From NCBI GenBank assembly GCA_015488685.1, contig WFNH01000074.1:1-64000 (forward strand): 64,000 bases of DNA, read 5' to 3'. The notes under the pieces are model-generated. The model made no database searches. It was not told where the DNA came from and saw only the letters and a program-made list of their open reading frames with translations. The stretch comes from Marinosulfonomonas sp. (GTDB lineage Bacteria > Pseudomonadota > Alphaproteobacteria > Rhodobacterales > Rhodobacteraceae). This document shows, piece by piece, positions 5,325 to 50,368 of this stretch; within the stretch, counting starts at the first letter, position 1, and each line of letters starts with the position of its first letter. The position numbers and the translations under genes were made by a program.

Positions 5325-5924
5325 ATGTTCACGGGGATTATCACGGATATAGGTCAGGTTCTGGCGGTCGAGATGCGCGGCGATATGCAGGCGCGGATCA
5401 GCACCGGCTATGACGTGGCGGGCATCGACATTGGTGCGTCCATTGCCTGTGATGGGGTCTGCCTGACGGTGGTGGCGCTGGGCGCGGATCCGCAAAACTG
5501 GTTTGACGTGCAGATTTCGGCGGAAACGCTGGACAAAGCCAACCTTGGCAAATGGGCCAGTGGCAAGCGCGTGAACCTTGAACGCGCGCTGAAGGTCGGG
5601 GACGAATTGGGCGGGCATATCGTGTCCGGCCATGTGGACGGGTTGGCCGAAATCATCGCCATGCAGGACGAAGGCGACAGCACCCGCGTTACCCTGCGCG
5701 CGCCCGATGCGCTGGCCGGTTTCATCGCCCCCAAAGGTTCGGTCGCGCTGAACGGCACGTCGCTGACGGTGAACGAGGTAAATGGCACCGATTTCGGCAT
5801 CAATTTCATCCCCCACACCAAAGCCGCCACCACATGGGGCGATGCGGTAGTGGGGGATATGGTCAATCTGGAGATCGACACGCTGGCCCGTTACGTTGCG
5901 CGATTGCGGGAGTGGGGCCAATGA
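5325..5924 (+). CDS. ribE: Riboflavin synthase alpha chain
   Basis: MFTGIITDIGQV start, SVALNGTSLTVNEVNG motif; rib gene cluster. Confidence 0.95.
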   Translation: MFTGIITDIGQVLAVEMRGDMQARISTGYDVAGIDIGASIACDGVCLTVVALGADPQNWFDVQISAETLDKANLGKWASGKRVNLERALKVGDELGGHIVSGHVDGLAEIIAMQDEGDSTRVTLRAPDALAGFIAPKGSVALNGTSLTVNEVNGTDFGINFIPHTKAATTWGDAVVGDMVNLEIDTLARYVARLREWGQ

Positions 5925-39687: not shown

Positions 39688-40932
39688 CTAGGGTGCCTTT
39701 CCAACAAATATCCGCATCGACACCAGTGACAACATCCGGCGTTTCCGGCGGGCTTCGAATATTGCAACGTACCGTTCATTGCCGAATAGCCCCTCGATCA
39801 GAACCTGTGCCCCGTCAATTCTGAAGGATGCCGGGTTATTCAGCATCAAAGCCAGCCGGGCATAATCCGATGGAACAACCGCACGCTGGCCGCGTGGCCC
39901 CTCCACCTTCTGGTCACCGTGTTTGCTGAATATATGCCGGATGGCATATTCGGATATCGTATAGTCGTATCCTTCGGATTCGATCCCGAGTGACCGGAGT
40001 TTTTGGACATCACGGGATGCCAACCGCCCGAATGTCCGGTATGGCTGGATCACCGGCCCGTTGGTCACAGCCCCGCTTTGCTTTGCCAATACCCGTTCGA
40101 CATAGCGGCGGGTCTCGTCAGCCAGTGACGGTGAGGCGCGATAGGCTGTAACAAAATCATCCACTACACTTTCCGGCAGGCTGTCCATATAAGCCTTGGC
40201 CAGTTCGAATGGCCAATTGACTGTTTTACGGGTCATTGTGTTGATTACCGGAGCCACGCTGCGCCCCGGGGCGTAGTCCCACCCTTTGCCAATGCCTACC
40301 GGTGTGCCTGACTTGGGATCAATGTTGTTCCAGTTGTCGGGCAACGGTTTGTCCGGATCGCCCCCGACACGGCGTGCACCTGCCAATGTGTGCGCACCAC
40401 GCACCTTGCAGCCGCAGCCCCAGCCGTTGGGCGGGTAATGCGTTTGCCAGAATTCGTGATCGAACGGCAGCACCATTTTATCCCATGACAAGTGGTCCAG
40501 TCGCGGGTGGGCCGCACCGCTGTGCTGGTAGATCAGGTATTTGAATTTGCCATCCACCAGTTGCGCCCAGCGACCGGCAGCCATCGAGGTGGCCATGTTG
40601 GTGCGATAAATCACCTTGGTGCGCCATGCCTCGCCCTTGGCCGATCCTTCGCCGGTCCAGCCGTGCCAGCCGTGGCGGGCGACGATCTCGCGGAAATCCG
40701 CACGGAAAGCCTCGATGCCGGTGCCCTCGGCGATGGCCTTGTCCACGGCCGCACCCAGATCGGCCAGCAGGTCGGCTTTCATTGCCCCGGCAACCATGAA
40801 CCCGCGATCATGTGCGCTGTGCTGCAGGTCATCCCACGCCGAGGTGGGCACCAGATTGCCCAGCCGCAACCGGAATGCGGCAACCTGCTCTGTGAAGGGC
40901 TTACGGAATGTGGCGCGGATCGGTTCAGCCAC
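39688..40932 (-). CDS. MuF/SPP1 gp7-type head morphogenesis protein with extra C-terminal nuclease-toxin-like domain
   Basis: FDHEFWQTHYPPNGWGCGCKVRG MuF signature; GTG start at 40932 overlaps the portal stop; extra C-terminus after about residue 300. Confidence 0.88.
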   Translation of the reverse strand: MAEPIRATFRKPFTEQVAAFRLRLGNLVPTSAWDDLQHSAHDRGFMVAGAMKADLLADLGAAVDKAIAEGTGIEAFRADFREIVARHGWHGWTGEGSAKGEAWRTKVIYRTNMATSMAAGRWAQLVDGKFKYLIYQHSGAAHPRLDHLSWDKMVLPFDHEFWQTHYPPNGWGCGCKVRGAHTLAGARRVGGDPDKPLPDNWNNIDPKSGTPVGIGKGWDYAPGRSVAPVINTMTRKTVNWPFELAKAYMDSLPESVVDDFVTAYRASPSLADETRRYVERVLAKQSGAVTNGPVIQPYRTFGRLASRDVQKLRSLGIESEGYDYTISEYAIRHIFSKHGDQKVEGPRGQRAVVPSDYARLALMLNNPASFRIDGAQVLIEGLFGNERYVAIFEARRKRRMLSLVSMRIFVGKAP

Positions 40933-48136: not shown

Positions 48137-48380
48137 AGTCACGTCTAACCCTCCGTCCACGCCGGATATCCGGACGGCTGACGGTGGTGATTGTCACAAC
48201 CGATCTGTTTTCCATCCGGTATTGGTAGCCGTCCATCTTCACCGAACTGGCCTGACCCGAAGTCCGCGCTGCAATCTCGTGCCCGATCTGGCGGCGCAGG
48301 GTCTCGATGTCATAACCCAGCACCCGTTCCAGATAGCGGATCAGCGCATGGTCGGTGACATGGATGGCGGGCTTTTTCAT
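48135..48380 (-). CDS. Hypothetical phage protein
   Basis: MKKPAIHVTDHALIRYLERVLGYDIETLRRQIG... Confidence 0.65.
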   Translation of the reverse strand: MKKPAIHVTDHALIRYLERVLGYDIETLRRQIGHEIAARTSGQASSVKMDGYQYRMENRSVVTITTVSRPDIRRGRRVRRD

Positions 48381-48823
48381 TTGCGCAGCTCGATTCCGGC
48401 ACGGGTGCACCATGCTTTCAATGCGCGGACCACAGCATTGATCTTGTCTGCATCTCGCAGGGTGTCGATGTCGATCGGAACCGACCCCCATTTGGCCGCA
48501 AACTGCGTGCGCACGAATGTGTTCAGTCCGGCTCGGGTCGGCTGGTCGAGTTCTCCGGCAGACCCCAGTTTGCCCCACAGCACATGCACCAGCCGCAGAT
48601 CCGCGCGGCGGGCGGCGGGATAGCGTTTCCTGCCTGCCCGTTTGTCCGGCGCAAACCCGCGCGCTTTAAGGGCGTCAACGACCTGTTTCAGATCCTCCTC
48701 GTCCATCTCGGTCATCGAGGCCTTGCCACAGGCCACCAACTGCAACGCACGGCGGGTGTCACTGTCGATGCCCAATTCGCGGCAGCCGACATGGATCAGT
48801 TTTTGCAGGCGGCGGGTGGTCAT
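48377..48823 (-). CDS. GemA-like regulator (DUF1018, Mu gp16)
   Basis: LQKLIHVGCRELGIDSDTRRALQLVACGKASMTEMDEEDLKQVVDALKARGF. Confidence 0.9.
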   Translation of the reverse strand: MTTRRLQKLIHVGCRELGIDSDTRRALQLVACGKASMTEMDEEDLKQVVDALKARGFAPDKRAGRKRYPAARRADLRLVHVLWGKLGSAGELDQPTRAGLNTFVRTQFAAKWGSVPIDIDTLRDADKINAVVRALKAWCTRAGIELRK

Positions 48824-48853
48824 GCTGGCACCCGATGAACGATGATGAGGTGA

Positions 48854-49441
48854 TTATGTTTTGATAATCTCCAGTTTTTTACCAAGCAACCAGCTGAAAA
48901 ACTGTATAAGGGTAGGAAATTCCTCACCAGAGTAAATCTGGTCAACACCAGTTGGGTGCGTAGTTTCTGGATTAATCTGGTTCCAACATTTTGGGAGTTC
49001 CTTTTCAGGAATGCCACCAACCCGCCTAGCGCCGTTAATAGAATAGCTACCACGGATTTTACAATAACAGCCCCAATCTTTTGGTGGGTAATGAATCTGC
49101 CAAAATGCATGATGCGGTGGCAATATAAGACCGTTAAATTGGTGATGATTTGGGACGGGACAATCGCGATCGGCTCCAAATACCCAAAATTTGCAACCAT
49201 CATTGATTTGTTTTCTGCGCAGCTCCCACAAACTGCGCCGCTCAAGATGACCACGCAGCATTCTAATACGCGACCTGAAAGCACTTTTGTCTTCAGGGCG
49301 AAGTATTTTTTGCCAAGAATACTCTGCGCAGAATGCCAAAACCTCCCGTTCAAAGTCAGTGAAGCCACTATTGAGGTTGCGGGTAATGATCCTTTCGAAC
49401 TCATCCCACTCTTTGGATTTGATTTGCAGGCGCTCATACAT
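48854..49441 (-). CDS. Stand-alone protein homologous to the C-terminal module of MuF head proteins
   Basis: LPPHHAFWQIHYPPKDWGCYCKIRGSYSINGARRVGGIPEKELPKCWNQINPETTHPTGVD aligns with the MuF at 39688-40932; visibly AT-rich against its neighbours. Confidence 0.8.
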   Translation of the reverse strand: MYERLQIKSKEWDEFERIITRNLNSGFTDFEREVLAFCAEYSWQKILRPEDKSAFRSRIRMLRGHLERRSLWELRRKQINDGCKFWVFGADRDCPVPNHHQFNGLILPPHHAFWQIHYPPKDWGCYCKIRGSYSINGARRVGGIPEKELPKCWNQINPETTHPTGVDQIYSGEEFPTLIQFFSWLLGKKLEIIKT

Positions 49442-49508
49442 TTTTGATTCGTCCCAATTGGTTCGAATGTATTTTGATTAAGCGTTTTATTAAATTGCAA
49501 GGATTGCA

Positions 49509-49754
49509 TCACACGAACCCCGCAGCTTCCATTCCGGCACGGAAATTCCGGATCATGTCCAGCGCCTCGAGACTGCTTTCAGCCTCGGTCACTCCGGGGA
49601 CATGCATCCGTCCGGCATCGTATTCGGCAGCCTCATAAAGCCGATTCATAAACGCACTGTCACCGCGCCCGACCAAGGGCTGGCTCATTGCGCTCTGTGG
49701 TCCATCATATACTTTGATCTCGCCATCACCGGTGGCATATGCAAAATATTCCAT
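49509..49754 (-). CDS. Hypothetical phage protein
   Basis: MEYFAYATGDGEIKVYDGPQSAMSQPLV...; early operon. Confidence 0.6.
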   Translation of the reverse strand: MEYFAYATGDGEIKVYDGPQSAMSQPLVGRGDSAFMNRLYEAAEYDAGRMHVPGVTEAESSLEALDMIRNFRAGMEAAGFV

Positions 49755-49756
49755 GA

Positions 49757-50368
49757 TCACACCCCCGCCAGATCAAGCGGGATTGCTGTGCGCACGCCCG
49801 TTTCAGGATCACGTTGATAAAACCGGATATAGGTCTTGGAGCTGTCGGTGCGCACCGCATCCGAAATCGCCTCCATCGCGCGCTGCCATTCGCCATCCTT
49901 GATGTCCAGACGCCGCAGGCCCAGCACACGTCCGGTGTCGATCCGGCCCTCCTTGTTGACCTGAAACGCATGGTTGACCAGTGCATGGATGTTGTCGTTC
50001 AGACCCTCGCTCCAGCGCTCGACACAGCGGTCGATCAATTCCTTGGCGGCATGCAATTCTGGCCCGAATGTCAGCCGGTCAGACACGGCGACCTGCATTT
50101 CAAACGCACCGTCATAGGATTTCAGGGTCATATTGCCCTTTTTCCCACCGATGGTCGCGCCGTAATTCTGCGCCACCATATCGCGCAAGGCCTGTGCTTC
50201 GGACAGGGCGGTTTCCTTGAACGTCGCAAGGGTTTCATTCAATTTAAGCGCTGACATGGCAAGGCGGCGCACCAGTTCGTCTTCCAGCTTGTGTTCCGGC
50301 TTGACCTTTTCTTGCGGCACAAGGTTGCCTTGGGCATCCTGCATATATCCTTCGGGGGTGTCTTTCAT
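49757..50368 (-). CDS. DUF3164-like phage protein
   Basis: YMQDAQGNLVPQEKVKPEHKLEDELV...IGGKKGNMTLKSYDGAFEMQVAVSDRLTFGPELHAAKELID. Confidence 0.88.
   Translation of the reverse strand: MKDTPEGYMQDAQGNLVPQEKVKPEHKLEDELVRRLAMSALKLNETLATFKETALSEAQALRDMVAQNYGATIGGKKGNMTLKSYDGAFEMQVAVSDRLTFGPELHAAKELIDRCVERWSEGLNDNIHALVNHAFQVNKEGRIDTGRVLGLRRLDIKDGEWQRAMEAISDAVRTDSSKTYIRFYQRDPETGVRTAIPLDLAGV

Follow-up and report, generated by a model that had tools for sequence, protein, structure and literature searches.

A stand-alone MuF core among the early genes of a Mu-like prophage, and its relatives in other prophages

Phage genes for MuF usually lie close to the portal gene. The prophage in the window analysed here (64,000 nucleotides of Marinosulfonomonas sp., positions 1 to 64,000 of contig WFNH01000074.1) carries, in addition to such a regular MuF, a small stand-alone version of the MuF core encoded among its early genes. 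We hold with high confidence that this gene is a MuF-derived moron maintained by selection. The evidence for this comes from its relationship to MuF, from a small family of similar genes in other prophages, from its base composition and from a second, independent case.

Results

The stand-alone gene (48854 to 49441, 195 aa), here called mini-MuF, is located in the early region of the Mu-like prophage, and its immediate neighbors are, like the gene itself, on the minus strand. GemA (48377 to 48823) lies 30 nt downstream. Upstream, across an AT-rich gap of 67 nt (49442 to 49508), follows an 83-aa ORF (49509 to 49760) with a weak PHROG match to a host nuclease inhibitor (E = 0.03), which adjoins the gene for the DUF3164 early protein (49757 to 50368). 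The regular MuF of the same phage (39688 to 40932, minus strand), directly downstream of the portal, is 8 kb away, as is the portal itself. BLASTP aligned the two proteins with 49% identity over 74 aa (E = 1e-26), a likeness far above chance level, and they were the only two MuF relatives with a meaningful E-value in the whole genome. An earlier sequence-only reading of this DNA had proposed the open reading frame, its homology to the phage's own MuF and its position far from the head genes in the GemA/DUF3164 interval; all three were borne out, with the refinement that the 83-aa ORF separates the gene from DUF3164. A consensus scan, by which alphaproteobacterial promoters may be missed, detected no sigma-70-like promoter in the 67-nt gap. 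In the same kind of scan there was no terminator between mini-MuF and GemA, the only terminator-like site being within the gene.

The MuF core domain (PF04233) aligns collinearly, in its whole length, with residues ~24-170 of mini-MuF. The MuF of Thiobacimonas phage vB_ThpS-P1 matches query residues 24-168 in the same collinear manner, and many Rhodobacterales prophage MuFs match from ~24 to ~170. In the 414-aa MuF of the same prophage, Pfam places PF04233 at residues 60-177, and the C-terminus is formed by a PBECR3 nuclease-like domain (residues 313-408). Judged from these alignments, mini-MuF is a divergent but complete MuF core followed by a short C-terminal tail of about 25 residues (171-195), after which the protein stops. 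It has neither the first ~50 residues of MuF nor its toxin-like C-terminal part, and no toxin domain was found in it. This corrects two points of the first interpretation, which had taken the shared segment for a C-terminal module of MuF and had assigned to the protein an N-terminus of ~100 aa of its own: the matched part is the core, and the alignment to other MuFs already runs from residue ~24. Core-profile matches place mini-MuF in the MuF superfamily. PHROG 220 matched it with E = 4e-12, and PF04233 with E = 8e-5 at a score of 23.8, below the curated cut-off of 29.6; the NCBIfam MuF model also scored below its cut-off (15.4 versus 39.65).

Relatives were sought with a protein query and then with profiles that were enlarged step by step. 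This search for other stand-alone copies and their gene neighborhoods, suggested at the outset, recovered four relatives in other Mu-like prophages, three full-length and one shortened, located in early or repressor operons. They come from Tropicibacter alexandrii LMIT003 (L047, 6896 to 7438, minus strand, 180 aa), Tabrizicola flagellatus (L049, likely start at 5425, 182 aa), a metagenomic viral contig (L085, 8001 to 8600, 199 aa, full-length) and a second viral contig (L202, 746 to 1057, the shortened copy of 103 aa). The Tropicibacter and Tabrizicola proteins matched PF04233 above its cut-off (E = 2e-8 and 3e-8, respectively). The L085 protein is about 38-41% identical to mini-MuF over its full length, and part of the tail is common to both (motif PTLxQF). 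In L202 only the half of the protein with the putative metal site described below is kept; an open frame precedes it in a different reading frame, which points to a deletion or frameshift.

None of the five stand-alones adjoins a portal gene at the loci inspected. A regular MuF is found behind the portal in four of the five phages (window, Tropicibacter, Tabrizicola and L202), the L085 contig being without a head region. In the tree, the five form one group apart from the portal-linked MuFs with support of 99/99 (100/99 in another tree, which set them against 74 MuFs), although they are on long branches, which could inflate the grouping, and the branching inside the group is unsure. Among the Rhodobacterales genomes searched there were three stand-alones (in the window genome, G549 and G557); short MuF matches in loci without a portal match (e.g., L225, L106, L137 and L124) are distant MuF types and were left out of the count. 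Cultured phages gave no match to a stand-alone MuF core, and the plasmid collection gave none to mini-MuF. Exact-peptide scans of the viral and species-genome collections with a single protein query returned nothing usable; they thus provided no close relative for a proper dN/dS estimate, and distant pairs were used instead.

His99, Trp114, Cys125 and Cys127 are invariant in 59 aligned cores comprising both MuFs and stand-alones. Two further residues of the MuFs, His90 (present in 93%) and Arg96 (in 100%), are both absent from all five stand-alones, in which the conserved His90 is replaced by a Cys three to five residues before His99. A putative metal site may thus have been kept by a ligand swap, from H-H-C-C in MuF to C-H-C-C in the stand-alones; in the window, the codons of these putative metal-binding residues (Cys94, His99, Cys125 and Cys127) fall within 49061 to 49162 on the minus strand. 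The stand-alones have also lost the MuF motifs IYxTN and KGWxYxPG and the GWTGEG...GEAW stretch.

Structure prediction by AlphaFold2, a check likewise suggested earlier, yielded a confident, complete domain for mini-MuF (59 sequences, mean pLDDT 90.8, pTM 0.78) with no disordered segments. Short strands are predicted at residues 4-8 and 189-193, and this predicted secondary structure suggests that both ends of the protein join one closed domain. A model of the MuF core (pLDDT 82) has its main helices and strands in the same order. When compared by Foldseek with predicted viral structures (BFVD), mini-MuF had phage head-morphogenesis (MuF) proteins as its best matches (best E = 4e-4); the PDB, searched by sequence and by fold, contained no match to it.

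The location of the gene varies among the phages. It lies between DUF3164 and GemA in the window and in Tabrizicola, just upstream of GemA in L202 (no DUF3164 match in that locus) and after GemA in L085. The Tropicibacter phage has no stand-alone at the DUF3164-GemA site and carries its copy elsewhere, on the strand of the repressor gene and starting 3 nt past the stop codon of the latter, so that expression in the lysogen is predicted. This is the only copy in a repressor operon; in Rhodovulum phage RS1 the place beside the repressor is taken by another accessory gene, which encodes a YbjQ homologue. In L049 and L085 the stand-alone is followed by the same ORF6N (antirepressor-like) gene (57.5% identity) and a small ORF, and this shared company suggests a cassette moving between sites.

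Some other features of these loci deserve mention. The DNA between the stand-alone and ORF6N (L049, 5973 to 6230; L085, 8600 to 8839) aligns well between the two distant phages, the flanking proteins being only 42-57% identical, and may encode a regulatory RNA that has been conserved, or serve the antirepressor-like gene as a leader. A C4-type antisense RNA ahead of ORF6N was considered and rejected, Rfam having no family at gathering score there. Two similar plus-strand ORFs of the Tropicibacter locus (L047, 5061 to 5663 and 6431 to 6931), DUF1643-like by eye, are to the left of the repressor/stand-alone pair and adjoin a cobalamin riboswitch and a TonB-type receptor gene, which are probably host DNA. 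In the window, two further open frames extend across the whole mini-MuF gene, one of 230 aa on the minus strand (48820 to 49512) and one of 163 aa on the plus strand (48956 to 49447), which is unexpected in AT-rich DNA. They were rejected as genes because inspection by eye of the +1-frame translations from L085 and L049 revealed no conserved protein.

The sequence-only reading described the mini-MuF gene as more AT-rich than its flanks, and its GC content is indeed 44.4%, compared to a window mean of 56.7%, with a GC3 of 0.43 versus 0.57-0.73 in 11 other genes of the phage. The gene is below its surroundings in all four cases measured (0.444/0.567, 0.616/0.66, 0.614/0.669 and 0.545/0.627). Its proposed status as a moron is backed by this foreign composition together with its patchy occurrence, its varying insertion site and its absence from most related prophages. 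The stand-alones appear to be under purifying selection, since pN is lower than pS in both pairs compared: 0.41 versus 0.82 for the window and L085, a distant pair in which pS is saturated and inflated by base composition, and 0.28 versus 0.64 for L049 and L202, also a distant pair.

A sixth stand-alone MuF core (L351, 11792 to 12409, minus strand, 205 aa) was found in a Mu-like prophage from a different alphaproteobacterial family (genome G910), as the one such gene among 250 genomes of that order. It sits after MuB among the early genes, at a distance of 7 kb from the MuF of its own phage, of which it is the sister in the tree (100/91), and an AU test rejected descent of all six stand-alones from one origin (p = 1.1e-7). 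Its cut points are about the same as in the others. The Cys change is also the same in kind: three Cys precede the invariant His, and WRYRCGPCIPPCNH stands where its own MuF has WRYRHNACLHPRLEH. A separate origin combined with similar cuts and a similar Cys change looks like convergent evolution.

Discussion

MuF proteins (PF04233 Phage_Mu_F, including Mu gpF and SPP1 gp7; PHROG 220, "minor head protein and DNA pilot") share with mini-MuF the core at ~24-170 and the invariant motifs His...HxFW...PP...CxC and GG.P. A survey of 611 phage genomes counted 614 muf genes, nearly always one each, and 85% of them were near the portal or terminase (Jamet et al., 2017; PMC5576092). Mini-MuF departs from this pattern in having no adjoining portal, in its early/lysogeny module and in its sequence, as it lacks the first ~50 aa and the part after the core, has a Cys near the position of His90 and has lost TN and KGWxYxPG. 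It has the MuF domain in common with the MuF polymorphic toxins (PMC5576092), from which it differs by the lack of a toxin domain and by its location outside the packaging module. The regular MuF in the window (39688 to 40932), with a PBECR3 match of E = 1e-8, is itself likely to be such a toxin.

Accessory genes are concentrated in the left arm of Pseudomonas Mu-like phages (PMC4378225), and in one of them, phage Fc02, superinfection exclusion is due to a gene that shares the transcript of the repressor (PMC9936078). Such exclusion genes of transposable phages are likewise small accessory genes in repressor or early regions; the likeness to mini-MuF drawn here is one of gene size and location, and exclusion by mini-MuF is hypothetical. 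The literature consulted, mostly without subscription papers, contained no account of MuF paralogues that stand alone among early genes.

It is a little short of an even chance, in our judgement, that mini-MuF is an old MuF paralogue and moron retained by selection for a task unrelated to head assembly, in which it competes with the MuF/portal of other phages. The protein would appear in the lysogen, or soon after induction, ahead of any head. Retaining the MuF fold, it would act before or without head assembly, and would compete with or poison the MuF/portal (DNA pilot) apparatus of other phages, with exclusion or phage-phage competition as the outcome. Because SPP1 gp7 binds the portal (PMC5576092), the most direct use of a lone early MuF core would be to disturb this step in other phages. 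Interference with the MuF/portal of competing phages is our leading mechanism by this analogy, put forward tentatively and with clearly less assurance than the identity as a selected, MuF-derived moron. The motifs lost from the stand-alones (IYxTN, GWTGEG...GEAW and KGWxYxPG) could include the portal-binding surface, which would speak against a simple portal decoy; decoy or superinfection roles are compatible with the data. A broader version is somewhat unlikely: that these proteins constitute a new anti-phage class, in which the MuF core was repeatedly cut from minor head genes and its metal site rebuilt so as to block the DNA-pilot/portal step of rivals.

The main rival to competition with other phages is also somewhat unlikely, namely that mini-MuF is an early, regulatory or host-takeover protein of its own phage (e.g., DNA-binding or anti-defence) with a MuF fold and no link left to MuF or portal. 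The early-operon sites by GemA, DUF3164, MuB or a repressor, the ORF6N partner in L049 and L085 and the loss of MuF-specific motifs would all fit such a role, and the title of a work cited in PMC5576092 calls SPP1 MuF a DNA-binding protein. However, the window copy has no ORF6N partner, and the PADLOC defence-system models did not match mini-MuF. It is improbable that mini-MuF is a virion-linked accessory made early, either a second MuF-type cargo or a modifier of the phage's own MuF/portal complex. The presence of a regular MuF wherever a head region is visible (window, Tropicibacter L048, Tabrizicola L049, L202 and L351) and the predicted retention of the fold are consistent with it; the location in early or lysogeny modules far from the late head genes, the copy within a repressor operon and the absence of the gene from most related phages argue against it.

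Even less probable is immunity against a MuF-linked toxin, of the same or another phage. The PBECR3 domain of the window MuF and a sub-threshold MuF_C match in the Tabrizicola MuF would suit this role. The Tropicibacter phage, however, has the gene although its 262-aa MuF carries no recognised C-terminal domain, which weakens the toxin neutraliser proposed in the sequence-only reading; moreover, the homologous part is the structural core rather than the toxin, and immunity genes are expected directly behind the toxin gene (PMC5576092). That the gene is functionless recombination debris of a foreign muf gene is just as improbable and largely refuted: rare and patchy occurrence, foreign base composition, a relative cut to 103 aa and the loss of many MuF-conserved residues would agree with it, but three full-length relatives beside the shortened one, ORFs intact in four phages, common start and end points, a common Cys change, pN/pS below 1, a confidently predicted complete fold and a second, convergent origin do not. 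The grounds on which the sequence-only reading would have accepted debris (homologues invariably truncated and free of selection, or a gene missing from the relatives of the phage) did not hold.

MuF cores that lie apart from the portal in early or repressor operons and evolve on their own, having arisen at least twice, suggest that phages have recruited a structural protein for competition or control. As neither the MuF domain nor Mu gpF is stated to have a known function (PMC5576092), a small and confidently folded stand-alone version would be a convenient handle for finding the binding partner of this domain.
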